The position numbers and the translations under genes were made by a program. This document shows, piece after piece, positions 48,345 through 64,000 of a stretch of 64,000 bases of DNA. Location: positions 124,001 through 188,000 of the forward strand of contig NZ_JACFXU010000018.1 of assembly GCF_014077625.1 (NCBI RefSeq), given 5' to 3'. The notes under the pieces are model-generated. The model saw only the letters and a program-made list of their open reading frames with translations. It searched no databases and was not told where the DNA came from. The stretch comes from Sediminihaliea albiluteola (lineage in GTDB: Bacteria > Pseudomonadota > Gammaproteobacteria > Pseudomonadales > Halieaceae). Position 1 is the stretch's first letter. Each line of letters starts with the position of its first letter.

Positions 48345-48904
48345 GCTGGTTGCGCGACAAGCGACTTTATTCGGCCCTGCTTGTGGCCACGCTGCTATTG
48401 CCACTAGGTTTATTTTTCTACCTTGTCTTTAGCGTATTGGGTATGCGCGCAAGTTACGAGGCGCAAATAGATCAGCTTGCGCCGCGCATCGCTCGTATGC
48501 AGGGCTTGATTGAGCGTCAAGATGTACTGGCTGACTCCACCCAGCGCATTGATAGCGAAGTGGCCAGCTTGGTTTATCCCGGCAGCGACGACCGCGCTGC
48601 GGTTTCAGCTTCGCTGCAGAAGTTGGTGCGAGAAATATTAAGCGATGCCGAGATGAAGGTGATCAATAGCCAAATCTTGTCGGTGATTGAGGATCAAGGT
48701 TTTGACCGCATCTCGGTTAGCCTCGCCGCAACCGGTGAGCTAGCAGCTCTTGATTTAGCTCTGAGTGATATTGCGGCTTTGCGGCCCTTAGTCATGGTGG
48801 AGGTGCTTAATGTTAAGCCCCAGTCAGTTCGCTCAGGGGATAAAGGCTCGCCTCAAAAAATATCAGTATCGATGCAAGTTTTCAGCTTAAGGCAGTCGCT
48901 ATGA
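48341..48904 (+). CDS. gspM: Type II secretion protein GspM
   Basis: 187 aa with a 4-bp ATGA overlap with gspL. A single N-terminal transmembrane helix (about 10-33) is followed by a coiled segment and a periplasmic ferredoxin-like domain. It stabilises GspL in the inner-membrane platform. Sequence conservation is low; identification rests on topology and gene order. Confidence 0.8.
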   Translation: MSWLRDKRLYSALLVATLLLPLGLFFYLVFSVLGMRASYEAQIDQLAPRIARMQGLIERQDVLADSTQRIDSEVASLVYPGSDDRAAVSASLQKLVREILSDAEMKVINSQILSVIEDQGFDRISVSLAATGELAALDLALSDIAALRPLVMVEVLNVKPQSVRSGDKGSPQKISVSMQVFSLRQSL

Positions 48905-49551
48905 CTTGGTTCGCCCCGCTGCGACAGCGTTACCGGATTACTAGCGAACCGCTGCGCAGTGAGCGTCGCGTGGAGCTATTAACTTTGGCATTTATTGCCG
49001 TGCTTGTTGTGCAGGTTATAGTGCTGATGTTGAAGGCTTTTACCACGCCGAGTGTCGAGCCAATACTGCCCGCTGAGGATTCACTGGCAGTGGGGGCCTT
49101 GAGTGGCTTGCAGGGGATTAGCCAAGAGCAAAGTGCAGAGCTGCGCGCTAGGCCGATGTTTTGGCAGTCTCGGCGCCCCTATGAGGCACCACCGCCAGAA
49201 GTGAAAGCGCCCCAAGAGGAAAAAAAGGCGGCGGCCGAGCTAAAAGGCGTTAAATTGCTGGGCGTGTTTGGCAGTGGCGACAATGCGGGCGTTATTGCGC
49301 TGGTTAAGGGTAAGCGCCAGAGAGTACTGCAAGGCGGTGACTTATCTGGCTGGACCCTACGAGAAGTGAGCCCGAAAGAAGTCACTCTTGTGAACGGCGC
49401 ACGGCGCGAAATCTTGGCACTAGAGCGCCTGCCTGTCACCGGTACAGTGTTAGAGGTCGACGCGCGTCAAGAGGCAGAAACTGCCGAGCCTGAGGCTGAT
49501 ACGCTGAGACCTCAGCGGGAGCCGCAAACACTGAGTCTTGGTGGGCAGTGA
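48901..49551 (+). CDS. gspN: GspC/XpsN-type T2SS connector protein
   Basis: 216 aa with a 4-bp overlap with gspM. One transmembrane helix (about 26-50), a Pro/Glu/Lys-rich linker (APPPEVKAPQEEKKAA) and a homology-region-like domain (about 112-175: LKGVKLLGVFGSGDNAGVIALVKGKRQRVLQGGDLSGWTL, in parts). This is the inner-membrane protein that contacts the secretin; in the EFGHIJKLM-N-D order it takes the place that GspC has in other systems. Confidence 0.78.
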   Translation: MTWFAPLRQRYRITSEPLRSERRVELLTLAFIAVLVVQVIVLMLKAFTTPSVEPILPAEDSLAVGALSGLQGISQEQSAELRARPMFWQSRRPYEAPPPEVKAPQEEKKAAAELKGVKLLGVFGSGDNAGVIALVKGKRQRVLQGGDLSGWTLREVSPKEVTLVNGARREILALERLPVTGTVLEVDARQEAETAEPEADTLRPQREPQTLSLGGQ

Positions 49552-49612
49552 TTTATTTTATCCGATGGGCTTCAATGCCTGAGATTATTCAAGACAAGTT
49601 TAAGGAAGACCT

Positions 49613-51805
49613 ATGCTGCTGAGGTGGCCTGTTACTGTCATTACGCTGAGCCTGCTGCTGAGCAGTTGTGCCTCCATGTCTCCCGCTCAAAAGGAGCCTG
49701 TAGTTCAAAGTGCTGCCACAGAGCAGAGGGCACAAGAGCTCAGCCAACAAAGTAAGCAGCTCAGTAAGAGCGCTGCCGAATTGGCAGATTCTGCTGAGAA
49801 GCTGGATCGCGTGCAGCCAGTGATTTATCGCGGCACAGACCGACAAATCAGAATGCCCGCTGCTGAAGAGCCGGTGCGCTTAGTTGGTAAAGATGTCAGC
49901 TTAAACTTTGAGGATGCCCCCTTGGCGGAGGTGGTGCATGCTGTGTTGGGCGATATTTTGGCGCTCGATTATATTGTCGACCGACCAATCAAGGGCAAGG
50001 TCACGCTGCGCACTCGCACCCCTATCCCACGCGATCAGTTGATGGAGGTGGTGGAATCGCTGCTAAAAGCCAACAACGTACTGATGGTGCGCGGCAGTGA
50101 TGGGCGCTACCTGATTACAGGGGCTGATCGTGCACGTAATTTGCGTCCCGATTTGTCTGCTGCAGGTGAAGGCGGTGTTGGGTACAGCACCATAGTAGTG
50201 CCGCTGCAGTACATTAGCGCTAGCAATATGGCCGAGATTTTAAGGCCGGTAGTTGAAGAGTCTTCTTTGCTGCGGGTCGATAATACTCGCAATCTGTTGA
50301 TCCTTGCAGGCACTCAAGCGCAGTTAGATGGCTGGCTCGAGATGGTTAAAACTTTTGATATGGATGTGCTGGAGGGCATGTCTGTCGGGCTGTTCCCACT
50401 CGAGCACAGCGGAGTGGAGTCCACTGCTAAAGTCTTAATGTCGATGCTCGACCAGAGTGGCAAAAATGGCCAGGCCGGTGACTTTGGTCAATTGGTGCGC
50501 ATCATCCCGATTAAGCGCTTGAATAGCTTGATGGTGGTCACACCGCGCGCCCATTATTTAAAAACTGTCAGTACTTGGATTGAGCGTCTGGACGCAGAAC
50601 CGGCAGCTAACTTTGAGCGCCGCCTCTATGTTTATCCGGTTCAAAACACAACGGCTAAGCGCCTGGCGGACCTGCTCACTAAAATCTATAGCGGTAGTGG
50701 CAGTAAGTCTGGCAGTAGCAGCCAAACATCCACTGGCTTTGGTGGCCAAGACGCAGTGGCGCCTGGTTTGAGTAGTGAGTCAATTGGCTCCTCATCTTCC
50801 TCTTCTTCTGGTAGTAGCTCCAACATGACGACGAGCTTTTCTAATAAAGGAAGTAGTGGCGGGGGCATATCCAGCGCCAGCGTGGGCCTTGGCGACGACG
50901 ATGATGTTATCTCCGACGTGCGAATCGTCGCGGATGATGAGAACAACTCATTAATGATCTACGCCACGGGTAAAGAGTATAAAATTATCGAAACTGCCTT
51001 GCAGCAGCTGGACGCGGTGGCAACTCAAGTGGTGATTGAGGCTTCTATATTAGAGGTCACGCTTACCGATGAGCTCAAATATGGTCTCGAATGGAGCTTT
51101 AAAGAAGGCCTGGGTGGGGATTATACTGGCGCCGGTATGCTTGATACGGGTGGCCAAGGGATTGGTGCGCTTGCGCCCGGTTTCTCTTACGCGGTCACCA
51201 GCGCTGCCGATAATTTCTCTGCGGTACTCAACGCTCTGTCTTCGGATTCCTTAATCAACGTGATATCAACACCTTCGGTAATGGTGCTGGATAACCACGA
51301 AGCCTACATTCATGTAGGTGACCAGGTGCCAGTTAAGTCTGCCACCACCATTTCTGAAGGCGGTACGACCCTGCAAAGCGTCAACTACCGCGATACCGGT
51401 GTAAAGCTGACTGTGCGCCCCTCAGTGAATGCGGGGCGCTTAGTGACGATGGATGTGGCGCAGTCAGTCACAGATGTGGGCACGGTTGACCCCGCAACAG
51501 AGCAGCGCTCATTTTTAGAGCGCAATATTATGACTCGCGTAGCGGTGCGTTCAGATGAGTCAGTGGTGCTCGGTGGCTTGATTCGAGAAAATGCCTCAGC
51601 AGGTGACTCGGGTGTGCCTTTCTTGCACAAGATCCCCGTACTCGGTGCTTTGTTTGGTGCTAAGTCGAGCAGCAACAACCGTACCGAGTTAATTGTGATT
51701 ATTACCCCGCGGGTGATTTCCAATGAAAGCGAGCTAAGGGATATTAGTAAAGAGATGCGCTCGCGAATGCGCAATATGGATCTAATTAATTACGTGTCCG
51801 ATTAG
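49613..51805 (+). CDS. gspD: Type II secretion secretin GspD (lipidated)
   Basis: 730 aa outer-membrane channel. A lipobox LSSC with Cys19 gives a lipoprotein signal, as in XpsD and HxcQ. A Gln/Ser-rich linker follows, then N0 (about 85-155), N1-N3 (about 160-430) and the secretin core (about 450-710) with VVIEASILEVTL, STPSVMVLDN and VPVKSATT. Within N3 lies a Ser/Gly-rich insert (about 355-425). The C-terminus after ITPRVI has a short amphipathic tail. AAGGAAG precedes the ATG. It ends the operon. Confidence 0.94.
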   Translation: MLLRWPVTVITLSLLLSSCASMSPAQKEPVVQSAATEQRAQELSQQSKQLSKSAAELADSAEKLDRVQPVIYRGTDRQIRMPAAEEPVRLVGKDVSLNFEDAPLAEVVHAVLGDILALDYIVDRPIKGKVTLRTRTPIPRDQLMEVVESLLKANNVLMVRGSDGRYLITGADRARNLRPDLSAAGEGGVGYSTIVVPLQYISASNMAEILRPVVEESSLLRVDNTRNLLILAGTQAQLDGWLEMVKTFDMDVLEGMSVGLFPLEHSGVESTAKVLMSMLDQSGKNGQAGDFGQLVRIIPIKRLNSLMVVTPRAHYLKTVSTWIERLDAEPAANFERRLYVYPVQNTTAKRLADLLTKIYSGSGSKSGSSSQTSTGFGGQDAVAPGLSSESIGSSSSSSSGSSSNMTTSFSNKGSSGGGISSASVGLGDDDDVISDVRIVADDENNSLMIYATGKEYKIIETALQQLDAVATQVVIEASILEVTLTDELKYGLEWSFKEGLGGDYTGAGMLDTGGQGIGALAPGFSYAVTSAADNFSAVLNALSSDSLINVISTPSVMVLDNHEAYIHVGDQVPVKSATTISEGGTTLQSVNYRDTGVKLTVRPSVNAGRLVTMDVAQSVTDVGTVDPATEQRSFLERNIMTRVAVRSDESVVLGGLIRENASAGDSGVPFLHKIPVLGALFGAKSSSNNRTELIVIITPRVISNESELRDISKEMRSRMRNMDLINYVSD

Positions 51806-51911: not shown

Positions 51912-52367
51912 ATGTTATATAAATTGAATGTGAAACTGGGAAAAATACTGTACTTAATAGTGCTTACTGCTGCGTTAACAGCGTGCGCAGGGCCGTCTAA
52001 TAAGCCCGTGGTATTTGACGAAGAGCAGCGCCAAGCCCTGCTGGAGCGAGTGACTGAGCGCTGGCGAGCATTAGAGCAAGGGGATTACGCGACAAGTTGG
52101 GAGTACACCTCGCCAGCTTTTCGAAAGGCATTTCCTAAGAATTTATACCTTAAAAAGTTCTCATACGCCGTGCGTTGGGAGTTGACAGGCGTGGACGTGC
52201 TTAACTATGATGACGAAGCAGTTGTGGCGAGTGTGGTTGTTGGGGTCATGTCCCATCCAACTAAACTAACCTCTGCAGCTTCTCAAGCAGTGGGTGCTAT
52301 ACCCCGCGAGCTACGCGAAAGATGGGTTTTCGTGGATGGCGAGTGGTGGTACAGTGCAAACTATTAA
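51912..52367 (+). CDS. Small lipoprotein of unknown function
   Basis: 151 aa. N-terminal hydrophobic segment and lipobox LTAC with Cys25 (mature +2 Ala). The rest (EQRQALLERVTERWRALEQGDY, WEYTSPAFRKAFP, ERWVFVDGEWWYSANY in pieces) has the look of an NTF2/SnoaL-like small alpha+beta fold, where a helix pair is followed by a curved sheet; this is a visual impression only. It stands alone between gspD and the abundant exported protein gene. I do not recognise the family. Confidence 0.7.
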   Translation: MLYKLNVKLGKILYLIVLTAALTACAGPSNKPVVFDEEQRQALLERVTERWRALEQGDYATSWEYTSPAFRKAFPKNLYLKKFSYAVRWELTGVDVLNYDDEAVVASVVVGVMSHPTKLTSAASQAVGAIPRELRERWVFVDGEWWYSANY

Positions 52368-52409
52368 TAATTGCTAGTAAAAACTGGCAATTTTGAGTGG
52401 GTTGTTCGG

Positions 52410-52439
52410 TTGACAGCTGGCCTCAGCTGGTAATAATAG
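52410..52439 (+). promoter_or_regulatory. Strong candidate promoter for the 513-aa exported protein
   Basis: A consensus -35 TTGACA at 52410-52415 stands 15-18 bp before overlapping -10 candidates (TAATAATAG at 52431-52439). The start codon lies about 55 bp downstream behind TAGGAG. Confidence 0.55.
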
Positions 52440-52494
52440 CGCTAGCAACGTGAAGAAATTATGTTGTACAAAGACTAACTTAGGAGTCTCCTTT

Positions 52495-54036
52495 ATGAAT
52501 AACACTTTTAAACCACTGGGTCTTGCTGCTGCAGTAGCCGCTGCAACTGTAGGCTATGTAGGTGCGGCTCAGGCTACAGAGTTGGCGGGTAACTCGTCAC
52601 TTGGTGACTTGGCCCTGATCCCCTATTACACTGTTAACGATGGCTACGCCACTGGTATGTCAATTGTTAATACTTCTGATCGCACACAGGTGATTAAAGT
52701 TCGTCTGCGTCGAGCTGTAGACTCTATGGATGCACTTGACTTTAGTGTTGTGCTGTCGCCAGAAGACGTATACACCGGTACTATCGCAGCTAAAGGCGAT
52801 GATATTGTGTTTGTCTCCAATGACAATAGCTGTACTGCTCCAGCGATGCCGGCGGGTGGCTTTAAAATGCCTGGTATCTATCGTGATGGCGCAGAAGAAG
52901 GTTATGTAGAAATTATTTCAATGGGTTCGCCAGTTAGTGAAGATGAGCCTATTGCTAAAGCTGCTTTGCACGATTCAGACGGTGTTCCAGCTAACTGTAC
53001 GCTAGTTCGCGATAACTTCTACGTGACTGAATATGATCCCACTGCCACCAAGACTGGCTTTACGCCTAAAAAACGTGGTGTTATTAACTCCGCGTTGACA
53101 GCTCAGCGATCGAAAGTTGATAGCGATACGCTGGTTCTTAACGAGTACAACGAAGCTCCAGACTCATTAAAAGTTTCTTACTTTATTAAGTCCGATGAGA
53201 CTGGTCTTGAGTTCGGAAACAACGCCGTGCACTTCTCTGGTCACATGGATGGTGCATCCATGACTAACCAAGAGCAAGGTGTGTTTGCTGGTGACCTGCA
53301 AGGTTTTGACCATCCAGACCTGAACGGTGGTGCGCCTTTGTCGTTTATGGGTGGCACAGCCAATGCTGCTTCACGTGGCTTGTATGAAGGTGTGCGTACA
53401 GCAATTGGTGCAGAACAGGTTATCAACGATTGGTCAGCTAACGATAGTGGTGCCTTCAGTGTTGATACGGACTGGGTTGTCACTGTGCCAGGTCAGTATC
53501 TGATGCTTGATCTTCCACAGTACCTGAACTCTTTGATTGACGAAGACGAGCTGTGTAATCCGGGCCTAGTTGCTAACCATAAGGCAACTGATCCAGAGGA
53601 TCGCACATGTGACTTCCGTGATATTCCTTTGAAAGCTGACTTCACAGTCTATGACCGGGAAGAGCGAAGCAAAGTGGTAGAGCCAGGTGAGCTGGTGGTA
53701 TCTCCTGCCATACCAGATCCTGAACATGTGGTATCTCTCGACCAAGAAGTGAACGTCATCGAGTGGGGTAACAGCCCGGTTCTAGGCACTGCCAAGGCTA
53801 TCAAGGTGCCCAAGCCTGAAGGTGCAGTATTTGGCTGGTCAAACCTAACTGTCACTCAATCTGCTGATAAAGAGCAGGCAATTTGTGACTTTACAAGTGA
53901 TGGTGTTCTTTGTGAAGTAACAGAGTCTCCGGTTCCAATGGTAGGCTTTGTTGCTTGGCAGCGTAACTTCGATACATTGCCTGAAGCTAACTATGGCCGT
54001 ATCGTAGAGCACAGCTATGTTGTAAGTGCTGAGTAA
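52495..54036 (+). CDS. Exported surface-type protein of unknown function
   Basis: 513 aa from the ATG preceded by TAGGAG (eight-base spacing); an in-frame GTG at 52450 is rejected. Signal peptide 1-29 (ends GAAQA/TE). The mature N-terminus GDLALIPYYTVNDGYATGMSIVNTSDRTQVIKVRLR (in parts, about 38-75) and LDFSVVLSPEDVYTG recall a family of cell-surface proteins annotated as hypothetical in marine proteobacteria. Cysteines come in spaced pairs, no transmembrane helix follows the signal, and the protein is acidic. Promoter, Shine-Dalgarno and terminator are all strong, pointing to high expression. Export through the adjacent type II system is possible. Function unknown. Confidence 0.82.
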   Translation: MNNTFKPLGLAAAVAAATVGYVGAAQATELAGNSSLGDLALIPYYTVNDGYATGMSIVNTSDRTQVIKVRLRRAVDSMDALDFSVVLSPEDVYTGTIAAKGDDIVFVSNDNSCTAPAMPAGGFKMPGIYRDGAEEGYVEIISMGSPVSEDEPIAKAALHDSDGVPANCTLVRDNFYVTEYDPTATKTGFTPKKRGVINSALTAQRSKVDSDTLVLNEYNEAPDSLKVSYFIKSDETGLEFGNNAVHFSGHMDGASMTNQEQGVFAGDLQGFDHPDLNGGAPLSFMGGTANAASRGLYEGVRTAIGAEQVINDWSANDSGAFSVDTDWVVTVPGQYLMLDLPQYLNSLIDEDELCNPGLVANHKATDPEDRTCDFRDIPLKADFTVYDREERSKVVEPGELVVSPAIPDPEHVVSLDQEVNVIEWGNSPVLGTAKAIKVPKPEGAVFGWSNLTVTQSADKEQAICDFTSDGVLCEVTESPVPMVGFVAWQRNFDTLPEANYGRIVEHSYVVSAE

Positions 54037-54059
54037 TTACAGCCATTAGCTAAAACTAA

Positions 54060-54091
54060 AAACCGACACCTTTGATGGTGTCGGTTTTTTT
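54060..54091 (+). terminator. Rho-independent terminator after the exported protein gene
   Basis: An 11-bp perfect stem (AAACCGACACC and its complement, 54060-54070 and 54077-54087) with a 6-nt loop and a run of eight T. It ends the single-gene transcript. Confidence 0.93.
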
Positions 54092-54119: not shown

Positions 54120-55031
54120 ATGTCAGATATTAAGCAACAGTTTTTCCTGTTATTTTTTGTGGTCGCTTTGACGTTTTCAGGCAATGGATTGGCCAGTATT
54201 GAGGTGGTTCGAGATCAAGGTACTGCAATAACTGCAGCAGAATTAGATTATTTAGTCAGTAAGTGGACTAGGCAAATGAGAGACTCTGCTCAGCGTGATA
54301 AAGGAGATCGTTTAGAGCTCCTGAATATGAGTTTGAGTAATAAAAAGTTGTCAAAGGAAGCTGATAAAATCAACCCCGAAAAAGACGGTGAGTTGTACTG
54401 GGATTACATGGTTCGTTTACAAACGCTAAAGCGTAACTTTGTGCTTGAGAAATTTGTGGCGCAATTGAATATACCTGAGATGGATCAGCTTGCTAAAGAG
54501 CGTTACACCACGCAGAAAGAAAAATATGCAAAAATCCCTGAAACGCGTATTTCTTCTCATATATTGTTTTCTTCGCCACCTGGCTTACCGAGGGATGGTG
54601 TGTTGAGCAAAGCTGCAGAAGTATTAGATCAGCTGCGTTCTGGCGCGAGTTTTGAAGAACTTGTTGTTGAGTACTCAGAAGATCCTGGGAGCAAGAATAA
54701 AGGCGGAAAATTCGACCGATGGGTTTCTTTGGGCCAGCCTGGTGTTTCTCCACCTTATACTGGTGGCCTCTTTGAAATAAAGGAGATTGGCGGATATTCG
54801 GATCTGGTGCAGACTGAGTTTGGTGTTCATATCATTCGGCTGGATGGTATTAAAGAAGAGGGATTTAAGCCATTTGAAGATGTAAGAGAAGGGATTATTG
54901 CGGAACTTGAGAATGAGTATAAAAAACTTGCAATAAAAGACTACATCAGTACGTTTCAAATTACTGATGAAGCCTATATAAACGAACCTGAGCTGGAAAA
55001 AATTCTCAACAAGTACCCTGGCCTCGATTAA
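54120..55031 (+). CDS. Parvulin-type peptidyl-prolyl isomerase, exported
   Basis: 303 aa from the ATG at 54120; the in-frame start at 54072 falls inside the terminator. Signal peptide about 1-26 (QFFLLFFVVALTFSGNGLAS). A helical region (about 30-130) precedes one PPIC domain (about 135-240: SSHILFSSPPG, LRSGASFEELVVEYSEDPGSKNKGGKFDRW, FGVHIIRLDG in parts). A periplasmic foldase related to SurA/PrsA; SurA itself has two parvulin domains, this has one. Its position just after the abundant exported protein suggests a dedicated chaperone; that is inference. The region from here on is visibly more A+T-rich. Confidence 0.87.
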   Translation: MSDIKQQFFLLFFVVALTFSGNGLASIEVVRDQGTAITAAELDYLVSKWTRQMRDSAQRDKGDRLELLNMSLSNKKLSKEADKINPEKDGELYWDYMVRLQTLKRNFVLEKFVAQLNIPEMDQLAKERYTTQKEKYAKIPETRISSHILFSSPPGLPRDGVLSKAAEVLDQLRSGASFEELVVEYSEDPGSKNKGGKFDRWVSLGQPGVSPPYTGGLFEIKEIGGYSDLVQTEFGVHIIRLDGIKEEGFKPFEDVREGIIAELENEYKKLAIKDYISTFQITDEAYINEPELEKILNKYPGLD

Positions 55032-55038
55032 TAAAAAA

Positions 55039-55968
55039 GTGATAAAGGCGCAGCCATCAGTAGCGATTTTGCTCGCGACTTATAATGGCGCGCCTTTTTT
55101 ATTCCAGCAATTAGAATCTATTGCAAATCAGTCGTACTCTAATTGGTATCTTTATGCATCAGATGATGGCTCGACTGATGTCACACTTAAATTGCTTGAG
55201 AAATGGCAAGACGGTTTTGGAAATACGCGTGTACAGTGTCGTGCAGGCCCTAGTCTAGGTTTTGTTGCTAATTTCCTTAGCCTTATTTGTGCAGAAGAAA
55301 TAGAAGCTGATTATTACGCTTTTTCAGATCAGGATGATATTTGGGACACCGACAAGCTGAGCAGAGCTGTGGCGGAGCTTGAAAAGCTTCCACAAGGTAT
55401 ACCAGCACTGTATTGTTCGAGAACACGTAGCATTGACTCTCAGGGGCGTCTAATAGGCCTATCTCCGGCTTTCAATCGTCAACCCGGCTTTGCCAATGCT
55501 TTAGTGCATAACATCGCTGCAGGTAATACCATGCTTCTTAATGCAGAGGCTTGCAGTCTAGTGCGAGCCTTAGGCGTTGTGGATGTGCCTGCTCATGATT
55601 GGTGGGTGTATTTGCTTGTTTCCGGAGCTGGAGGCGCAGTCATCTTCGATTCAAAACCTAGTTTGAGTTATCGGCAGCATGACGATAATCAAATAGGGGA
55701 TAATAGTGGTTTTATTACCCGCATCAAACGCTATTATTTAGCGCTTTTAGGGCGCAATAGGCGCTGGAGTGATCAACACTTAAACGCTTTGCAAGCCGCT
55801 TTGCCTCTGCTTGAGAAAAATAACCGTCGTTTACTTGAGCAGTTTTCTGATGCCCGCAACTTGCCCTTTTTTAGCCGAATAGCAGCAATGATTCGTTTAG
55901 GGATTTATGCCCAAACTTTTTCGGGCCGCTGTGGCTTGATCCTAGCAATTATACTAAAAAGGCTATAA
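55039..55968 (+). CDS. Family 2 glycosyltransferase
   Basis: 309 aa with a GTG start seven bases after the foldase stop. GT-A fold: SVAILLATYNGAPFLFQQLESI (about 7-28), ASDDGSTDVT (about 40) and the DxD-type motif FSDQDDIWDTDKL (about 95). This is the rhamnosyltransferase-like GT2 subgroup common in O-antigen and exopolysaccharide clusters. No transmembrane helix, so it is probably a peripheral cytoplasmic enzyme. Donor and acceptor unknown. It leads a glycan cluster with the sulfotransferase genes that follow. Confidence 0.87.
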   Translation: MIKAQPSVAILLATYNGAPFLFQQLESIANQSYSNWYLYASDDGSTDVTLKLLEKWQDGFGNTRVQCRAGPSLGFVANFLSLICAEEIEADYYAFSDQDDIWDTDKLSRAVAELEKLPQGIPALYCSRTRSIDSQGRLIGLSPAFNRQPGFANALVHNIAAGNTMLLNAEACSLVRALGVVDVPAHDWWVYLLVSGAGGAVIFDSKPSLSYRQHDDNQIGDNSGFITRIKRYYLALLGRNRRWSDQHLNALQAALPLLEKNNRRLLEQFSDARNLPFFSRIAAMIRLGIYAQTFSGRCGLILAIILKRL

Positions 55969-56027
55969 GACATTGGGCATAATACCAGAATCAAAAACTC
56001 ACTTCATATTAACGAAGAATTTGATAG

Positions 56028-59000
56028 ATGAAGGATCAAAAAAAGCTAGTGGTTGTTCTTGGTGCCCATCGGTCGGGCACTTCACTTTGTGCTGCAGCTA
56101 TGCAGTACTTGGGAGCGAATCTATGTTTGCCTGATGATTATCGCAATGAGGAAAACAGTAAAGGTTTCTTTGAACATCCTGATTTTGTAGAGTTCAATGA
56201 TGCATTATTGGCTCACCTTGGTGGTGTTTGGGATAACCCAATTTTTAATGGTAGTGAAGCACTAGCGGCTCAATCGCCTGTGAGCATAACACCCTGGCGC
56301 AAAGCAGGGGTGGAACTGATCCGCCAGCTATTTGGTAATAAGAAGTTATGTGCAATAAAAGATCCGCGACTCTGTCAGCTGCTGGACTTTTGGCATCCAC
56401 TCTTTCAGCAGGCTGGTTTTGCAGCTAGTCAGCTGCGCTATGTGCATGTACTTCGTGACCCTGTAGAGGTTGCTCTGTCACAGCAGCAGCGCGCACGCAA
56501 AAATCCTGCATATTATGAGGTGGGACATCAACTCGCCGAGGGTGCAGCCCTGTGGTTGTCGCTGACTGCACAAGCCCTGCATTCAGCAAGGTCATTGCCT
56601 ACTTTCTACTTGAATTACCGTCAGCTTATGGATCGACCGGAAGAGTGCTTACGGGCCATCGCAGAGTTTACTGAGTTGGAGTTTTTTCCTGAGACAGCAC
56701 GAGAGTTTGCGCAGGAATTTGTCGATGGCAAGCTCTACCGCAGCGAACGAAGTGACGATGGTGTACAGAGGCTCGACAAAGAGTTGCCGCAGCTATTTGA
56801 ATTTTTCACTGAGCTGCAGCCATTGTGGGAGTCTCAAAGTGCGCAAGGGGTCGAGTCGGCTTTAAATATTTATAGACGTTCTGATACCAGTGAGAGGTTG
56901 GCAGATATTGCAGTGCCTGCGCTGTCGCGACTGAGTATTGGCTGTAGAGAGTCGAGGCTTGCGCAATTAATTAAGTCCGATGAGCTTGAATCACTGACCC
57001 GGCAGCGGGATGAGTTCGCATCAGTGGTACAGCCGCTAAGAGCTGAAGTGAAGGCCTTAGAGGGAGGTCTAAGCGAATTAAACCAACAGCATACAGATCT
57101 AAAGACAGCATACGAAAATATAGAAAGTGATCATCAGAATATTTTGAGCTTGTTGCGGCGCAGCAGCGAAGAAAATACAAGGCTTGAGGCAGATTGCGCA
57201 CACTTAATGCGTGAGCGCAGCACACTGGAATCCACCATCAGAGATATACAGAAATCGCTATCTTGGCGTATAACCCAACCACTTCGGTGCTTGAGATCCT
57301 GGCAGTTGCAATTACAGGACTCAGCTGGGGGTGCCTGGAGGCAATTTCGTCTGCGCGCCATACAGAATTATCATCGGCTAAGTATTCGTCATCCGTCGCT
57401 GGCTTGGAATTTGCGACGCTTACTACGTCCGGTATTCCGGGGTATTGGCCGCTTGTTAGATAAGAGTTCACAGTCCAGCGAAAGATTTAACCGGGTCAGC
57501 GGAAACCTACTTGAACCCCTCTTATATCAGCAGTATGAGACAAATGAAGCTTATGCTCCGCTTATTAGCGTTATCGTCCCAAATTATAATCACGCTGAGT
57601 TCCTGACGCTGCGTTTAGATTCAATTTACTCCCAGAGCTACCCCAATATAGAAGTGATTTTATTGGACGATGCCTCTACGGATGACAGTGTTTCTATTCT
57701 TGAGGACTATCAACGGCGTTATTCTTCAAATACTCGCCTGATTTGTAATGAAAAAAACTCTGGTGGGGTGTTTCACCAATGGCAGCGTGGTTTAGAAGCA
57801 GCCAATAGCGATATAGTATGGATTGCGGAAAGCGATGACTGGTGTAGTGATAATTTTCTCGAGTCACTTGTACCGTATTTTGAGAATGAAGCAGTGCAGC
57901 TGGCTTATGCTCGTACCGTGTTCATGGATGGCGATGGAGATGAGCAAATTTGGTCGATTAATGAGTATTTACACGATATAGACCCGGAGCGGTGGAATAG
58001 CGAAATACTTACTACGGGCGCAAATATTGTTCGGGAAGCTTTCGCACAGAAAAACATAATCCCAAACGTGAGTTCCGCAATTTTTCGCAACCCACGCAGT
58101 TTAGAGATTATGCACGATCCGAAATGGGAGACAATGCGTATATGTGGTGACTGGGTTCTATATTTGCACTTACTGCGTGGAGGGATGTTGGCATATTCAC
58201 CGGTTGCTTGTAACTACTATCGTATTCATGGTCAAAACACTTCGGTATCAGCTTACGCAGATGATGCTTTTTACCGAGAGCACGAGCTGGTGGCAGAAAC
58301 CCTGATAAAATATTTTGGTCTCGATAAAAATGCTCTGGAGCAACTTCGTGAAAATTTGATCATACATTGGAGGCAGACCCGTCCAAATGATCCGGTAGAG
58401 GGCTTAGACATTTGTTTTAGCTTAAATGATATTCGAAAGAGAGTTGGTTCGCGTTCTCCCAACTTGCTAATGGCTTCTTATGCTTTCTGTGCGGGTGGAG
58501 GGGAAACTTTTCCGGTGAGTTTGGCCAACCTGATGAAAGCTCAAGGATACAATGTTACATATTTGGATTGTGCTCAGGAAGAGCGTAATGAAGGGGTGCG
58601 GAAGCGTTTGAGGCCCGATATCCCTGTGGTATCAGATTACTCACAAATTGAACGGATCGTGCAGGATTTTAATATCGATATTATTCACTCGCACCATGCC
58701 TGGGTGGATAGCACGGTCTTAGATGTGTTACCTGAAAAGTCTTTCTGTAAGACGGTTGTTACATTGCATGGTATGTATGAAACGATTAATGAGGTAGATC
58801 TCAAAGGAATTTTGCCTCGATTGGTAAAGCGCACGGCACGGCTAATTTATGTAGCTGAAAAGAATTTAGGTGCTATTGATAGTTTAGGTCTTAGACAACA
58901 GGCAAGGCTTCAGCGAATTGATAATGCACTCGAACATGAAGCTTATGTGCCTGTAACTCGAGGAGCGCTTCAGATCCCTGATAGTGCCTTTATTTTGACA

Positions 59001-59537
59001 CTAGTCAGTCGTGGAATGGAAGAAAAAGGCTGGGCAGAGGGGATTCAAGCGGTGGCTCTTGCTAGGGAGCTTTCAGGTAATGACATTCACTTAGTTCTTG
59101 TTGGGGATGGCCCAGAATATGAGAGACTTAAGAGCGAGAAGCTGCCTGCGTTCGTTCATTTAGAGGGTTTTCAGAGTAATGTGCGCGGATATTTCGCTGT
59201 TGCTGATCTTGGGTTTTTGCCCTCGCGTTTTAAAGGGGAGAGTTTTCCCCTAGTCATAATTGAGTGTCTGCAGGTGGGGCGCCCTATGATGGCGACAAAT
59301 ATAGGTGAAATATCATATATGCTCGAAAGCCAGGAAGGATTGGCCGGTGTACTGTTGGAGCTTGATGGAGACGATTTAGATATCGAAGCTATGGCGCAAG
59401 CTATAGCTGAAGTAAGCGAGCAATCCGAAATTTATGAAGGTCTTGTCCGCAGGGTACCAATTGCAGCGAATAAGTTTGATCCTGTGATTCTTGCGGCCAA
59501 ACATGATGAGACCTATCGTGCTGCACTAGCAGAGTGA
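56028..59537 (+). CDS. Sulfotransferase-GT2-GT4 fusion protein
   Basis: 1169 aa. Domain order: a PAPS sulfotransferase (about 5-290) with the 5'-phosphosulfate loop GAHRSGTS (12-19) and a 3'-phosphate motif VLRDPVEVALSQQ (about 141); a coiled coil (about 317-407); a linker with SWRITQPLR, a short motif often seen between such modules; a GT2 domain (about 510-740) with VIVPNYNHAEF and LLDDASTDDS and the acidic site AESDDW; and a GT4 domain (about 810-1165) with SYAFCAGGGETFP, LVSRGMEEKGW, LVGDGPEYERL and PSRFKGESFPLVIIE. One chain could thus add two sugars and a sulfate to a surface glycan. No signal or membrane helix. Confidence 0.88.
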   Translation: MKDQKKLVVVLGAHRSGTSLCAAAMQYLGANLCLPDDYRNEENSKGFFEHPDFVEFNDALLAHLGGVWDNPIFNGSEALAAQSPVSITPWRKAGVELIRQLFGNKKLCAIKDPRLCQLLDFWHPLFQQAGFAASQLRYVHVLRDPVEVALSQQQRARKNPAYYEVGHQLAEGAALWLSLTAQALHSARSLPTFYLNYRQLMDRPEECLRAIAEFTELEFFPETAREFAQEFVDGKLYRSERSDDGVQRLDKELPQLFEFFTELQPLWESQSAQGVESALNIYRRSDTSERLADIAVPALSRLSIGCRESRLAQLIKSDELESLTRQRDEFASVVQPLRAEVKALEGGLSELNQQHTDLKTAYENIESDHQNILSLLRRSSEENTRLEADCAHLMRERSTLESTIRDIQKSLSWRITQPLRCLRSWQLQLQDSAGGAWRQFRLRAIQNYHRLSIRHPSLAWNLRRLLRPVFRGIGRLLDKSSQSSERFNRVSGNLLEPLLYQQYETNEAYAPLISVIVPNYNHAEFLTLRLDSIYSQSYPNIEVILLDDASTDDSVSILEDYQRRYSSNTRLICNEKNSGGVFHQWQRGLEAANSDIVWIAESDDWCSDNFLESLVPYFENEAVQLAYARTVFMDGDGDEQIWSINEYLHDIDPERWNSEILTTGANIVREAFAQKNIIPNVSSAIFRNPRSLEIMHDPKWETMRICGDWVLYLHLLRGGMLAYSPVACNYYRIHGQNTSVSAYADDAFYREHELVAETLIKYFGLDKNALEQLRENLIIHWRQTRPNDPVEGLDICFSLNDIRKRVGSRSPNLLMASYAFCAGGGETFPVSLANLMKAQGYNVTYLDCAQEERNEGVRKRLRPDIPVVSDYSQIERIVQDFNIDIIHSHHAWVDSTVLDVLPEKSFCKTVVTLHGMYETINEVDLKGILPRLVKRTARLIYVAEKNLGAIDSLGLRQQARLQRIDNALEHEAYVPVTRGALQIPDSAFILTLVSRGMEEKGWAEGIQAVALARELSGNDIHLVLVGDGPEYERLKSEKLPAFVHLEGFQSNVRGYFAVADLGFLPSRFKGESFPLVIIECLQVGRPMMATNIGEISYMLESQEGLAGVLLELDGDDLDIEAMAQAIAEVSEQSEIYEGLVRRVPIAANKFDPVILAAKHDETYRAALAE

Positions 59538-59575
59538 GAGTGGTAAAGGGGCGATCGTTTTTAGGAGACTGAATA

Positions 59576-60610
59576 ATGGGGCCTACCAAAATATTTGAAC
59601 GTATATACTTGCACGTGGGCCTTGGGAAAACTGGTAGTAGCTCAATTCAAAGAGCAGCCGTAGGCCAGCACGATCAGTTGCTTGATGTGCATGGCATTCA
59701 TTTTCCATTAATTGACGGGGATCCAAGGCCGTTTAATGGCAATCATACGCTATTTCTGAGCTCACTTTTTGGATCAAAACCCGAGCTTCAGCGTCCAAAT
59801 CAGCTGTATGGATTAGGCTCGTACGACGCAATTAGCAAAGCAAATGAAGATGTTTTGCGGCAGTTTGAGCAAGGGTTTCTTGCCACCAGTGCCACAAAAT
59901 TGCTTCTATCTGCTGAGGGAGTAGGTCACTATAGCCGAGGTCGTATGCAGCGCTTGGCTGATTGGTTATACACTTTTACAAGCGACGTTAGAGTAGTAGC
60001 TTGTTTAAGAAATCCCATCGACGCGCTCTCTAGTGAAATTCAGCAACGCTTGAAGACTGGTGCGATCTTGGAGAACCTGTATCGTGATCCGCCGCACTAT
60101 TCTTATAGGACGGTGCTTACAGACTTGGAAAGTGTTTTTGGTCGCAGTAGTTTTTTATTGTATGACTATGCCGATGCCATAGAGAGCAGAGGAGGTTTAG
60201 TTGCCGAGTTTTTTCGTCAGATTGGCTTATCTTTGAGCGGGATGGATGAGGTCTTGGATGGAGAGGTGGTCAATACAAGCATGAGTCAGGAGGGAGCCTT
60301 ACTTTTAAGTGCGCTTAATCGACAAAGGCCACTGTTTGTAAATGGCAGTGTTAATCCGTCCAGATCGCCAGAAGATGTACTAGAGTTTATTTCGATACCT
60401 GGGAAAAAATATCAAGCGCCTGAATGGGTATATCGTCAGTTGAGAAGTCAGGTGGAGCCTGAGTTGGCTTGGCTTTACTCAAATTATGGTCTTATTTTAC
60501 GTGAATTAAAGTCATTGCGGCCTAATCCTCTAAGCCGTCAATGGAGCGAGCAAAGCATCGATGCTCTCGCTCTTAAACTGAATGACTTAGGAAGGTTAAG
60601 GCGAGCCTAG
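59576..60610 (+). CDS. Sulfotransferase-like protein A
   Basis: 344 aa. The N-terminus IYLHVGLGKTGSSSIQRA (about 11-28) is the P-loop-like 5'-PAPS site of bacterial carbohydrate sulfotransferases, and RVVACLRNPIDALSSEIQQRL (about 139-159) carries the 3'-phosphate-binding Arg/Ser. AGGAG stands before the ATG. It follows the fusion protein by 38 bp. The acceptor is unknown; the context suggests a glycan. Confidence 0.8.
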   Translation: MGPTKIFERIYLHVGLGKTGSSSIQRAAVGQHDQLLDVHGIHFPLIDGDPRPFNGNHTLFLSSLFGSKPELQRPNQLYGLGSYDAISKANEDVLRQFEQGFLATSATKLLLSAEGVGHYSRGRMQRLADWLYTFTSDVRVVACLRNPIDALSSEIQQRLKTGAILENLYRDPPHYSYRTVLTDLESVFGRSSFLLYDYADAIESRGGLVAEFFRQIGLSLSGMDEVLDGEVVNTSMSQEGALLLSALNRQRPLFVNGSVNPSRSPEDVLEFISIPGKKYQAPEWVYRQLRSQVEPELAWLYSNYGLILRELKSLRPNPLSRQWSEQSIDALALKLNDLGRLRRA

Positions 60611-60640
60611 TTTTACTTATTCTCCACCACGCCCGCCCGT

Positions 60641-61711
60641 TTAGCTTAATTCATCTGTAAAGCGCCCAAGTTGGTTTGCTGTTTGTTTATGAAAGGGCTT
60701 AATAGAGTCGCGCTCTCTTTGTATAAAGCTTTGTAGTCGTTGGAAAAGCTTCGGGTATTTTTGTTGTAAAAACTTTGATATTGCAACACCTTCACTATGG
60801 GGTAAGGGGTTGCTATCCCATGGGTCATCTGGGTTTGGTAAAGGAGCATCAAATAATATCCCACTCGGGCGTCCCATATAGTTTATTGCAATTGATTCAT
60901 TGACTACAGTAGCGTGATCGAGGATCTTTATTCGATCATTTGGGGAAAGAATATCTCTTTGGGGGCGGGGAAATTTTTTTGCGTACTCAGCTAATGGGGC
61001 GTTAAATAAAACTGTTTGTTCACGATTATCTTCCAGCACATTGATTAAGCGTTTATATTCCATTGTGCTGTTGGAGAGGCGTGGATTGGCGTCCGCATGG
61101 TTATAGCTAAATGTTCGACCCGGCTCGACACCGTAGGCATGGTAAAGTAGGTCGCTGCGAATATCACCGTTGTGGAATTGAGTTTTTTCATAGGCTCGAA
61201 CTAAGATTTTGTCTGCTCCTAAAGCGTCCGCCCAAGGTTGAATCTTGTCTAGATAATTGAACCGGACAATTAGGTTGTCGAGTATATGGTGTAAATCCCG
61301 TTTTTGTGCGCCAGCTTTAACCTGTTGATTATAGGTGGCCATGATAATGTCATCTTGGCGTCGTAGATAAACTAATATTCTAATATCGAAGTGTTTTTTA
61401 ACTTCTGTGCAAAAAGCACTAATAGCTTCTGGGGTGGCCCAAGCGATCAATTCTGATGAGATAAGTATTTTATCTTCTTTGCATTGGCTCAGTTTGGGCG
61501 CCCATTGGTCAGGCGTTTGGAAATCCCATTGGCCAAGTAAAAACTTGGGAATATGAGGCGATAGAAGGTGGTGTGCATCTGACATGATGCCAGTCTTAGG
61601 ATACAAAATTCCAAGCTTCGATAAGGGGCGTCTATTTGCCCAAAAAAAGTTTTGCAGGGCAGTTGTTCCTGTTTTGCCCATGCCAATATGGATTGTTAAT
61701 TCTTTTGCCAT
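60641..61711 (-). CDS. Sulfotransferase-like protein B
   Basis: 356 aa on the opposite strand. TIHIGMGKTGTTALQNFFW (about 6-24) is the same P-loop-like motif as in protein A, and ILVYLRRQDDIIMATYNQQVKAG (about 112-134) is the 3'-phosphate site. The two are related but clearly different (the C-terminal halves do not align by eye). It converges with protein A, with 30 bp between stops, and diverges from the methyltransferase gene. Confidence 0.8.
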   Translation of the reverse strand: MAKELTIHIGMGKTGTTALQNFFWANRRPLSKLGILYPKTGIMSDAHHLLSPHIPKFLLGQWDFQTPDQWAPKLSQCKEDKILISSELIAWATPEAISAFCTEVKKHFDIRILVYLRRQDDIIMATYNQQVKAGAQKRDLHHILDNLIVRFNYLDKIQPWADALGADKILVRAYEKTQFHNGDIRSDLLYHAYGVEPGRTFSYNHADANPRLSNSTMEYKRLINVLEDNREQTVLFNAPLAEYAKKFPRPQRDILSPNDRIKILDHATVVNESIAINYMGRPSGILFDAPLPNPDDPWDSNPLPHSEGVAISKFLQQKYPKLFQRLQSFIQRERDSIKPFHKQTANQLGRFTDELS

Positions 61712-61930
61712 TTAAAGTAGATATTCCATCACAAAAGGTTCGAATTATACCCTAGGAGGTATTTCAGCGCATTAAGATAGCGTACCTTAGTCTTGTAGTT
61801 TCAGTTGCGGCTGTTGTTGACTATAATAGGCGCCCTCTCTATTGTTGCCCACCTGCATAGCTATGCGGTATAACTTTTAGCATAGCTCGAATCGATTTCA
61901 TCTCATGACAGTTGTTTACTGTGAGGCCCT
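61712..61930. promoter_or_regulatory. Divergent promoter region
   Basis: A 219-bp gap between divergent genes. It contains a perfect TATAAT at 61822-61827 facing the methyltransferase gene with a poor -35 (TTTCAG, 17 bp upstream), and a short A+T-flanked palindrome near 61748-61763. Nothing else was recognised. Confidence 0.3.
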
Positions 61931-62629
61931 ATGTCCGAAGATATTTTGGGATTAAACAGACATCCAGGTGACCACCATTATCGCGCTTTCGTAGGGCCAT
62001 CTGTGGACTATGATTTAGTTAGTGCAATGGCCTTTGGCCTTCTCACAGCATGTGGTTTGCGGCAGCATCATCGCTTATTAGATATTGGTTGTGGCTCGCT
62101 TCGTTTAGGGCGGCTCTTTATTCCATATTTGAATCAGGGTAATTACGTAGGTCTTGAACCCAACAAGTGGCTAGTCGAAGAGGGCTTGCGTTATGAGGTT
62201 GGAGACTCGCTTGTGAAGAATAGGTCTCCTTCCTTTGTTTATGGCAGCAGTCTTAGCGGGTGGGAAGGCAAGCGTGAGTTTGACTTTGCAGTTGCTCAAT
62301 CTATTTTTAGCCATACAGGTGCCGACTTATTGCTCCAGTGGCTTGTAGAAACTGCTGATGCCTTATCAGAAAGTGGGGTACTTTTCGCGACAATTATTGA
62401 AGGTGCTGAAGACTGCCGTGACTCAGGTTGGATTTATCCAGAGTGTGTTGAGTACCGGATTGAAACGATATCGCGGTGGGCGGAGGAAAATGGCTTACAA
62501 ACCCAAGTATTAGATTGGTACCACCCTCGACAAACGTGGTGTGCTTTTTATAAACCCGAGTTTGATCCGGGAGTGCTCAATGGAGGCTCGCCTTCTTGGA
62601 ACCACTTTGGAAGCCGTGCACAACCATGA
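61931..62629 (+). CDS. SAM-dependent methyltransferase
   Basis: 232 aa. Rossmann-fold class I methyltransferase: motif I LLDIGCGSLRLGRLF (about 49-63), the acidic post-I residue in YVGLEPNKWLVEEG (about 75-88), motif IV FDFAVAQSIFSHTG (about 116-130). Resembles methyltransferases found in capsule and O-antigen loci. The last bases overlap the next start (ATGA), so it is coupled to a sulfotransferase; both could modify the same glycan. Confidence 0.84.
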   Translation: MSEDILGLNRHPGDHHYRAFVGPSVDYDLVSAMAFGLLTACGLRQHHRLLDIGCGSLRLGRLFIPYLNQGNYVGLEPNKWLVEEGLRYEVGDSLVKNRSPSFVYGSSLSGWEGKREFDFAVAQSIFSHTGADLLLQWLVETADALSESGVLFATIIEGAEDCRDSGWIYPECVEYRIETISRWAEENGLQTQVLDWYHPRQTWCAFYKPEFDPGVLNGGSPSWNHFGSRAQP

Positions 62630-63534
62630 CGGAGCGCTTTTCTGACTTAGTTTATTTGAAGCAGTATCGTGTAATGGCTGAAGATACAGCGCCGATTGTT
62701 ATTGGTGGTGTAGGAGGTAGCGGAACGAGACTGGTCGCTAGTCTGCTGCCTGGCTTTGGGGTGGAACTGCCAGGCTTGATGAATGATGCGCTGGATAACA
62801 TGTGGTTTAGCTTGCTATTCGTGCGGCGCAGTATTTTGCTGAAACCACGCGCTGAGATTTCTGCTTTATGCTGGATGTTTTCTCGTTTAATGCGACATAA
62901 CGAAGCTGTGCCGGCTGAGCTGTTGTCAATGTTGAGTGAGGCTGCAGAATTTGATCGAGGACCAGCCCTAAATAAGGCCATGTTAAATGAGGCGCTAGAG
63001 TCGATTCTGAGCTTGCTTCCATCAGAGTCAGAAAAGGATTTGTCTTTGGAGACTCCGTGGGGTTGGAAGCAGCCTAATAGTCATGTCATGCTGCCTATGC
63101 TTAATCAGTACTTTCCAAATATGAAGTATATCTATGTTGCACGCAATGGTTTAGACATGGCATTTAGTGCTAATCAAAACCAGCTTCGATACTTTTGGGG
63201 GGATCTTTTGCTAGAGGGAGATTTTAGTGTTACGCCTAGGAACTCCTTGCGGTATTGGGTCGCTGCTTTTAAAAGGGTTTTAGGAGACAAGGCTTTGTTG
63301 GGTGATCGACTTCATATCCTGAATTTTGATGCGCTATGTGATCAGCCGGCTTCTGAATTGGCCCGCCTTAAGCAGTTTTTAGAGTTAGATGTTGATTCAG
63401 GTGTATTGAGCTCTCTCGCTGACTCAATAGTGAAGCCGGCGAGTCGAGGGCGGCACGCAAAACAAGATTGTTCGCAGTTTGATTCAGCTGATATTGATTT
63501 TGTGAGAGCGGCTGGATTCGATGTGCAGGTATAG
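62626..63534 (+). CDS. Sulfotransferase-like protein C
   Basis: 302 aa from the ATG that overlaps the methyltransferase stop; an in-frame TTG at 62596 lies inside the previous gene. PIVIGGVGGSGTRLVASLL (about 20-38) is the 5'-PAPS loop with the GSGT core; YIYVARNGLDMAFSANQNQL (about 167-186) is the 3'-phosphate motif. It is the fourth sulfotransferase domain within 7.5 kb. Confidence 0.8.
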   Translation: MTERFSDLVYLKQYRVMAEDTAPIVIGGVGGSGTRLVASLLPGFGVELPGLMNDALDNMWFSLLFVRRSILLKPRAEISALCWMFSRLMRHNEAVPAELLSMLSEAAEFDRGPALNKAMLNEALESILSLLPSESEKDLSLETPWGWKQPNSHVMLPMLNQYFPNMKYIYVARNGLDMAFSANQNQLRYFWGDLLLEGDFSVTPRNSLRYWVAAFKRVLGDKALLGDRLHILNFDALCDQPASELARLKQFLELDVDSGVLSSLADSIVKPASRGRHAKQDCSQFDSADIDFVRAAGFDVQV

Positions 63535-63586: not shown

Positions 63587-64000
63587 TTGAGCCAAAACCA
63601 TATCCACTGGCGCTCTGCCATCCTCAACTGGCGTATGCTGGCTTGCATATTTATTGGCTTTGCCTCTGGTATGCCTTTGTATGTGCTGCTGCAGTTGGTT
63701 CCGGCTTGGTTGCGCGACGAAGGCGTTTCTCTTGTTGAGATAGGCTTATTTGCCCTAGTTGGCATTCCTTATACTTGGAAGTTCCTGTGGGCGCCCTTTA
63801 TGGATCGCTGGTCGCCGCCCTTGTTGGGGCGATTGGGTCGGCGCCGTGGGTGGATGTTGCTATGTCAGCTCGCTTTGCTGCTATCTATTGGCTTCTTAGG
63901 CCAGCTTGAGCCGGCAGTCTCAACAGCGGTAGTAGCCTGGGTGGCCTTATCAGTGGCGTTTTTCAGTGCTAGCCAGGATGTAGTGCTCGATGCTTTTCGC
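63587..64000 (+). CDS. ampG: AmpG-type muropeptide permease, 5' part
   Basis: 138 codons to the window edge, open at the right. IFIGFASGMPLYVLLQLVPAWLRDEGVSLVEIGLFALVGIPYTWKFLWAPFMDRW (in parts, about 21-75), GRRRGWMLLCQ and FFSASQDVVLDAFR match the N-terminus of the AmpG MFS permease, which imports GlcNAc-anhMurNAc peptides in cell-wall recycling and induces AmpC. A TAG stop stands two codons upstream, so the start is TTG at 63587 or ATG at 63635; the TTG gives an N-terminus of the expected length. Confidence 0.85.
   Translation, partial: MSQNHIHWRSAILNWRMLACIFIGFASGMPLYVLLQLVPAWLRDEGVSLVEIGLFALVGIPYTWKFLWAPFMDRWSPPLLGRLGRRRGWMLLCQLALLLSIGFLGQLEPAVSTAVVAWVALSVAFFSASQDVVLDAFR

Follow-up and report, generated by a model that had tools for sequence, protein, structure and literature searches.

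The surface-layer (S-layer) protein NpdA coats cells of Delftia acidovorans and Paracidovorax citrulli, and in the accessible parts of the papers describing it the gene follows the gsp cluster (PMC10765051, PMC3110197, PMC4572682). Orthologues listed in the available text of one of these studies include those of Haliea salexigens, Parahaliea mediterranea, Pseudohaliea rubra and Comamonas odontotermitis (PMC10765051). Here we analyze a stretch of 64,000 nucleotides (the window, whose numbering is used throughout) from Sediminihaliea albiluteola, a member of the Halieaceae, which are widespread in coastal seawater (PMC10100682). The window carries an NpdA-type S-layer locus next to a type II secretion system (T2SS), followed by a cassette of sulfotransferase (ST), glycosyltransferase (GT) and methyltransferase genes. 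The coupling of this S-layer locus with sulfated-glycan genes is real and conserved; its function we infer from sequence, and the reading we consider probable is that of an S-layer locus with an attached, exchangeable cassette for a glycan sulfated by enzymes dependent on 3'-phosphoadenosine 5'-phosphosulfate (PAPS). Searches of the open-licence literature, with most subscription journals outside their scope, addressed a link of S-layer, T2SS and sulfotransferase genes as well as NpdA, sulfotransferases of Halieaceae genera and Slr4; among the top-ranked papers they listed, none reports this locus, and on that basis the coupling of an NpdA S-layer with sulfated-glycan genes appears undescribed so far.

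The protein of the window resembles NpdA in being exported, in lacking any Pfam domain and in being encoded directly downstream of a T2SS cluster. With cleavage placed by eye after AQA, its mature mass would be ~52.3 kDa, against 52.4 kDa in P. citrulli; a second T2SS lies elsewhere in the genome, and the same Halieaceae species carry the family. The two systems differ in their neighborhoods, in that the available text on NpdA describes only gsp neighbors, plus one additional gene in one species, and mentions no peptidyl-prolyl isomerase (PPIase), glycan genes or STs. In Aeromonas salmonicida, as far as the accessible text goes, T2SS and S-layer genes lie inside the O-antigen cluster and the layer is tethered by lipopolysaccharide (LPS) (PMC4483657). 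The O-antigen genes of this A-layer/wbsalmo locus include those for an ST-domain hypothetical protein and a 1122-aa WbbB (PMC4483657, same portion), whereas its cassette is otherwise another one and its Wzm and Wzt genes flank the S-layer genes on either side; that portion does not take up sulfation. The Slr4 S-layer of Pseudoalteromonas tunicata is also a marine gammaproteobacterial S-layer whose gene adjoins a T2SS cluster; we liken it by gene context alone, and the available part of the report mentions no glycan cassette (PMC7821379). Finally, WbbB and WbdD, polymerase-terminators of ABC-dependent O-antigens, share with a fusion protein of our cassette an N-terminal modifying domain, a possible coiled-coil spacer and a C-terminal GT pair, as described for WbbB in the accessible text (PMC11231755). 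Their N-terminal domain is a Kdo-transferase or a methyltransferase/kinase, whereas the fusion reported here has an ST; their partner is a Wzt with a carbohydrate-binding domain, of which none occurs in the cassette, the genome not having been searched with Wzt_C itself.

The NpdA-type protein and its secretion neighbors

The S-layer gene (52495-54036, forward strand) encodes a protein of 513 aa with a Sec-type signal, an N-terminal hydrophobic segment judged by eye; the longest open reading frame (ORF), which starts from a GTG at 52450, amounts to 528 aa. No Pfam family was matched. Comamonas odontotermitis carries on a plasmid, downstream of a T2SS, the gene of a related 'cell surface protein'. 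This protein served as stand-in for NpdA of Delftia and P. citrulli in the homology comparison and aligned with the family at an hhalign E of 2.4e-35 (probability 99.9, 396 columns, 27% identity). Named records place further members in Haliea salexigens, Parahaliea mediterranea, Pseudohaliea rubra and others. Because of this overlap with the species listed for NpdA, the firm match to the Comamonas protein and the near-equal mature mass, we assign the 513-aa protein to the NpdA family and predict that it forms a lattice. Of 100 Halieaceae genomes, 60 carry the family. Searched as a profile, it was recovered from 9 of the 194 genomes examined for the order (the source, six more Halieaceae and two of other families) and from 16 of the 369 for the class; all three counts include the source genome.

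The AlphaFold2 model of the protein (pLDDT 84.1, pTM 0.85) gave weak partial matches only in Foldseek, and a PDB sequence search with the family profile returned nothing useful. Residues 50-265 of the model could be superposed on TM1070 (VIA-align Z 9.9, rmsd 2.4, 105 aligned) and on the Anabaena sensory rhodopsin transducer (Z 6.9), and galectins scored at Z ~6. We read these resemblances as a common beta-sandwich and drew no function from them.

A complete T2SS operon (41562-51805, forward strand) lies directly upstream, read in the order E-F-G-H-I-J-K-L-M-C-D. GspD (TIGR02517, E 7.5e-136), GspE (PF00437, E 5.9e-143) and GspL (a PilN match) were identified by profile, and the remaining letters were assigned from gene order and by reading. 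The stretch from gspD to the S-layer gene holds only the gene of a small lipoprotein of 151 aa (51912-52367, forward strand), with weak lipobox (E 0.016) and DUF4864 (E 0.0087) matches. Comamonas odontotermitis encodes a homologue of this conserved partner in its locus (profile E 4.2e-18), and so does Cocleimonas flava (E 3.8e-33). The genome holds two T2SS secretins above cut-off, the second on contig C6, where in the region 90885-96939 the second T2SS directly adjoins genes for ATP sulfurylase, adenosine 5'-phosphosulfate (APS) kinase and an ST.

Sulfotransferases and glycosyltransferases of the cassette

The first-pass annotation had reported four ST and three GT domains between 54120 and 63534, and the genes and domains that it named lie at the places it gave. 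The order is PPIC-type PPIase, GT2, ST-GT2-GT4 fusion, two divergent STs, methyltransferase and ST. We accept the count of four ST and three GT domains because loop, Arg and Ser motifs back the two STs that Pfam does not recognize, together with a profile match for one and a predicted fold for the other. The exported PPIase (54120-55031, forward strand; PF13616, E 1.1e-14) is probably the foldase of the S-layer protein. It is followed on the same strand by the GT2 (55039-55968; PF00535, E 3.4e-14), by the fusion (56028-59537) and by the first divergent ST (59576-60610). The second (60641-61711), of the same divergent family, is on the reverse strand. A SAM-dependent methyltransferase (61931-62629; PF08242, E 6.4e-7) and an ST with the variant loop GVGGSGTR (62626-63534; PF13469, E 1.9e-12), both on the forward strand, complete the set. 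In several related loci (L041-L046, L050 and L179), STs akin to those at 60641 and 62626 run in the same direction and are joined in a single frame, as ORFs of 650-660 aa; in the source window the 60641 ST is inverted and the methyltransferase stands between the two.

The fusion, of 1169 aa, combines a Sulfotransfer_3 domain (residues 8-219, E 3.5e-8), a GT2 domain (514-648, E 4.5e-28) and a GT4 part (PF13439 at 823-954, E 1.3e-10; PF13692 at 990-1130, E 1.3e-17). Among 16 aligned fusions the positions G12, H14-S19, K111-R114, R143 and S151 are invariant. The region between ST and GT2 is a possible coiled coil: residues 302-411 gave only weak SMC/TMF matches, and a crude heptad scan, itself non-discriminating, showed no excess over background there (score 1.65, the 90% quantile of background).

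The two divergent STs had no significant Pfam match (best PF00685, E 0.21 for the 59576 and 0.10 for the 60641 protein), and PDB sequence searches with both yielded no useful match. In an alignment of 16 sequences of their family the positions of an H-x-G-x-x-K-T loop and a downstream Arg are invariant, and a Ser is nearly so; the loop and the Arg/Ser motifs correspond to the 5'-PSB and 3'-PB motifs, as do invariant positions of the fusions. Profile-profile comparison of the 60641 family with PF13469-type STs gave E 2e-5 (hhalign probability 77), and the 59576 protein alone reached only E 0.038 (probability 1.3). The AlphaFold2 model of the 59576 protein (pLDDT 80.7, pTM 0.82) is closest to heparan-sulfate N- and 3-O-sulfotransferases, the best being NDST1 (Z 14.7, rmsd 3.9, 229 aligned). 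These heparan-sulfate enzymes and one bacterial ST score Z 13.3-14.7 and other STs at most 9.9, including cytosolic STs (Z 8.0-9.2) and tyrosylprotein sulfotransferases (Z 8.1-8.5, rmsd 6.3-7.6). The motifs and, for the 59576 protein, the modeled fold are those of PAPS-dependent STs, and we predict such an activity.

These comparisons bear on whether the STs might act on protein itself, by sulfating for instance tyrosines of the S-layer protein. RaxST of Xanthomonas reportedly acts on protein in this way, and the position of the ST genes beside the gene of an exported protein would suit such a role. We regard it as highly improbable for the present locus: the 59576 model fits glycosaminoglycan STs above tyrosylprotein sulfotransferases, one of the STs is fused to two GT domains, and PAPS is cytoplasmic, whereas the S-layer-family protein is exported.

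The cluster extends 8-10 kb past the window, to ~70-74 kb in window numbering. An MFS permease gene (63587-64000 within the window, forward strand, with its end at 64864; PF13000, E 4.7e-9) forms the right-hand flank of the windowed part. It is followed by a fifth ST, whose PF13469 match (E 7.5e-6) scores 26.8 bits where the cut-off is 27, and then by a GT2, a second methyltransferase, a sulfatase (67616-69574; PF00884, E 1.1e-54), another GT2, a PhyH dioxygenase, an acyltransferase-3-like gene and a second PhyH-like gene, with ATL, DUF481, FxsA and groESL at the right end. The names of the GT2s, the acyltransferase, the second PhyH, ATL, DUF481, FxsA and groESL come from reading the sequences. 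The sulfatase, which has a LamG-like C-terminal part, sits within the sulfation cluster, and possibly it edits the glycan. The module fifth ST-GT2-methyltransferase-sulfatase-GT2-PhyH is common to locus L048 and in part to other loci.

A conserved frame and a variable cassette

Neighborhoods were taken from 40 of the 59 other Halieaceae genomes that carry the S-layer-family protein, and ST profiles were seeded with STs of the source genome and window. Gene calls by longest ORF give some false reverse-strand frames in GC-rich loci (L052, L068, L160), and gene lists of the relatives are incomplete; the frame and ST counts were supplemented by tblastn. Distances and signals were studied in a set of 31 loci that excludes the near-duplicate Haliea loci L053/L056, the distant-subfamily loci L072-L077 and L080, and the cut locus L078.

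The frame of gspD, lipoprotein, NpdA and PPIase genes was recovered in 39, 38, 40 and 40 of the 40 relative loci, respectively. In 33 of the 40 an ST begins no more than 1.5 kb past the PPIase, and 36 have one somewhere downstream in the stretch. The link of the glycan genes to the exported neighbor, which the first-pass annotation had suspected, is thus borne out by synteny across Halieaceae loci. The linkage reaches beyond the family. Comamonas odontotermitis has the order T2SS, small protein, cell surface protein, PPIase, ABC transporter (of the Wzt_C type), methyltransferases and GTs. In Cocleimonas flava the lipoprotein, NpdA and PPIase genes precede an ST-like ORF without Pfam match, a PF13469 ST (E 6.7e-13) and an ST-headed fusion recognized by our own profile, and two APS kinase genes and a UDP-glucose dehydrogenase gene lie on the other side of the frame.

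What follows the PPIase varies widely: across the 31 loci the median cassette distance is 0.95 against 0.42 for gspD. Three main cassette types were seen: that of the source locus, a GT2 with an ST-GT2-GT4 fusion, one with a different kind of ST-GT2 fusion, and one in which an ST is followed by a GT2 protein of ~730 aa; further ST-like ORFs without Pfam match (loops KTAGSS and KNAGTT, e.g. in L057 and L114) were left uncounted. In the distant subfamily, the PPIase of L077 and L080 is followed by an ABC-2 permease and a Wzt that contains Wzt_C, a methyltransferase comes first in L074, and T2SS genes follow directly in L073. In other families of the order, Wzt_C transporters are found after the PPIase (L135) or beyond the T2SS (L134).

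Two further arrangements were seen. An extra exported-looking protein of ~230-310 aa is encoded between the S-layer gene and the PPIase in L074 (5279-6019), L077 (5248-6174), L134 and L135; of two that were scanned, one had a weak InlB-repeat-like match and the other none. Genome G271 (L136, L137) holds four further S-layer-family copies, three in tandem, without adjoining T2SS genes, and its single copy has an ST gene ~2 kb off.

The variability of the cassettes raises the question of whether the linkage is incidental, with the cassette sitting at a recombination hotspot beside groESL and making an O-polysaccharide, a capsule or a glycolipid that has no relation to the S-layer. High cassette distances would be expected of such a hotspot, similar ST-GT fusions occur elsewhere in some genomes, and the MFS-FxsA-groESL flank recurs, its members being detected in 30, 18 (FxsA) and 17 (groEL) of the 40 relative stretches. 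We hold this explanation to be doubtful, as the S-layer, PPIase and glycan genes are also linked in Cocleimonas and Comamonas, where no groESL flank was seen in the stretches fetched, and as the ST stands so regularly just behind the PPIase. When 100 genomes were searched with a profile of the ST-GT fusion, 28 of the 38 strongest matches fell no farther than 12 kb from an S-layer gene (27 of them within 3.3 kb); note that the profile was built from fusions in fetched S-layer loci and so favors matches there.

Several observations weigh against an S-layer locus with a dedicated sulfated-glycan cassette. Seven of the 40 loci lack an ST within 5 kb: L078 stops at a contig end, and the distant-subfamily loci L073-L077 and L080 have no ST or one more than 8 kb away. 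Ten of the 38 strongest fusion matches are not near an NpdA gene, some of them at contig ends; one is far off on the same contig, three are on other contigs and six are in genomes without a detected S-layer gene. At least one of these six, L174, is a fragment of a contig on which the usual right flank is present. STs are common genome-wide, with 11 PF13469 matches in the source genome and, among the matches listed, 4-41 in each of the 40 relatives. The 21-kb stretch of Cocleimonas flava shows no T2SS, and the link there is to glycan genes only. No exporter was found in the cassette, including its part past the window. Finally, in partial Mantel tests given gspD (31 loci), the cassette correlates with the S-layer protein at r 0.25, with the lipoprotein at 0.30 and with the PPIase at 0.16; we make no claim of co-adaptation because the S-layer value is weak and not above that of the lipoprotein.

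Expression signals and base composition

The S-layer gene appears to be framed by signals of its own. A near-consensus sigma-70 promoter (TTGACA-16-AATAAT, matching at 11 of 12 positions; 52410-52437) is predicted on the forward strand, in a region (52410-52494) that also holds the motif TTAGGAGTCTCCT at the ribosome-binding site. A predicted terminator with a 13-bp stem and a T tail (54058-54089, forward strand) separates the gene from the PPIase and the cassette. All 31 loci tested have a terminator of this kind 3' of the S-layer gene, where mononucleotide shuffles would yield 0.1, and in 29 of them a Shine-Dalgarno-like match stands ahead of an ATG close to the gene start. An alignment of 29 Halieaceae loci, the set without L042 and L062, in which the search expression was unmatched, shows the promoter, the GCTAGC-type palindromes and TTAGGAGTCTCC to be largely conserved. 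The weight of promoter and terminator rests on this conservation, because neither scan total exceeds its shuffles; for the promoter scan as a whole, 21 sites compare with 18.1 in shuffles. The 13-base motif at the ribosome-binding site occurs exactly once in the source genome, and with one mismatch allowed at 5 sites, against 5 for a control pattern. Taken together, the predicted signals fit a monocistronic, highly expressed coat protein gene. Within 52395-52494 the GCTAGC-type palindromes lie around the -10 box, and TTAGGAGTCTCC at the ribosome-binding site is almost invariant across the aligned loci; these conserved elements could be a regulator site or an mRNA-stability element.

The A+T-richness from which lateral acquisition had been suggested is real, GC being 0.42-0.47 over 53-63 kb and 0.49-0.57 before 52 kb, but its onset lies already in the lipoprotein and exported-protein genes. 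In a composition set of 30 loci (the 31 without L070, whose cassette is shorter than 2 kb; own locus included), GC is below that of gspD for the S-layer gene in 28 and for the PPIase gene in 29. Low GC of these two genes is no sign of transfer, because both belong to the frame, and the composition of the left neighbors is uninformative in this respect. The GC of the source cassette itself (0.453, against 0.523 in gspD) hints at exchange from a lower-GC relative. Lateral acquisition is supported in part: low cassette GC is not general among relatives, the cassette being below gspD in 17 of the 30 loci (by more than 3 points in 8) and not below in 13, a pattern that is compatible with cassette exchange.

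Sulfate supply, glycan export and proposed mechanism

ATP sulfurylase and APS kinase genes stand side by side on another contig, adjoining another ST, and apsK scores above cut-off, so that the source genome encodes a supply of PAPS. The absence of wzy, flippase and ABC exporter genes from 54120-63534 was confirmed by the Pfam scan, and such genes exist elsewhere in the genome. Contig C9 encodes an ABC-2 permease, an ATPase without Wzt_C (a Wzt-like protein of 243 aa), a flippase-like protein, a sugar transferase and an O-antigen-ligase-like protein, and contig C5 encodes a Wzy_C protein; ligase/polymerase families are represented in the genome by two matching genes.

With the ST motifs, the fold, and the ATP sulfurylase and APS kinase of the genome, a sulfated and methylated surface glycan is the best reading of the cassette, as had been proposed from the gene set. 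The accompanying statement that sulfated bacterial glycans are scarce outside symbionts and mycobacteria seems too strong, since sulfated capsules are described for marine Cobetia and Vibrio in the accessible parts of two reports (PMC11766843, PMC11641403). Starting from what computation established (gene identity, homology, conserved linkage, the signals of the S-layer gene and the PAPS genes), we infer each biochemical step of the following mechanism. The NpdA-type protein would be produced abundantly under the control of its own promoter and terminator, cross the inner membrane by Sec, fold with the aid of the adjoining PPIase and be exported by the adjoining T2SS to form a surface lattice. 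ATP sulfurylase and APS kinase would provide PAPS while cytoplasmic GTs build a lipid-linked glycan, which the STs would sulfate and which the methyltransferase or methyltransferases, and possibly the PhyH oxygenase and the acyltransferase, would decorate. The product would then leave the cell through general surface-polysaccharide machinery encoded elsewhere in the genome and be displayed together with the S-layer.

How glycan and lattice would be joined is less certain. We put at slightly under even chances that the glycan is an LPS-type polysaccharide anchoring or surrounding the lattice. Such a polysaccharide is favored because of the precedent of Aeromonas salmonicida and the Wzt_C transporters in related loci, and, given the NpdA-family neighbor and the LPS tether of A. 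salmonicida, an LPS-type partner is at least as likely as attachment to protein. The first-pass annotation had proposed instead that the sulfated glycan is covalently bound to the exported protein, which would make it an S-layer glycoprotein comparable to those of haloarchaea. The tight linkage of the cassette to the S-layer and foldase genes speaks for such a bond, as do the two genes that match ligase/polymerase families and, by analogy, the STs that modify a glycan of Halobacterium glycoproteins in the available text of a published study (PMC11980604). Nevertheless, no oligosaccharyltransferase family was found by Pfam in the window part of the cassette, an alignment of 33 sequences inspected by eye has no obvious conserved Ser/Thr-rich acceptor region, and the words 'glycosyl' and 'glycoprotein' do not occur in the NpdA paper (PMC10765051). 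Covalent modification of the S-layer protein seems rather unlikely to us, and an LPS-type tether or companion more likely. The Mantel correlations were not used in this comparison because they are weak and the lipoprotein value is as high.

A bolder and distinctly speculative proposal, which we advance with little confidence, joins two ideas. The site behind the NpdA gene would be serotype-like, cassettes of GT, ST and methyltransferase genes (sometimes with a sulfatase) being swapped while export frame and coat are kept, and the ST-spacer-GT2-GT4 fusion would be a one-protein polymerase making sulfate-terminated chains. A sulfate terminator is not among the terminators named in the accessible part of the review of such enzymes (PMC11231755).

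Implications

The locus suggests partners, namely the lipoprotein, the PPIase and the glycan genes, for an S-layer family that was recently described, in the text available, with T2SS neighbors. If an NpdA-type coat is indeed paired with a variable sulfated glycan, it would be a bacterial counterpart to the sulfated glycoproteins of haloarchaea and may help to explain the many sulfotransferases in Halieaceae genomes. It would also offer a testable marine source of sulfated polysaccharide, with possible effects on contact with phages, grazers and surfaces. Should the serotype-like proposal be true as well, each lineage would wear an S-layer with its own pattern of sulfation.

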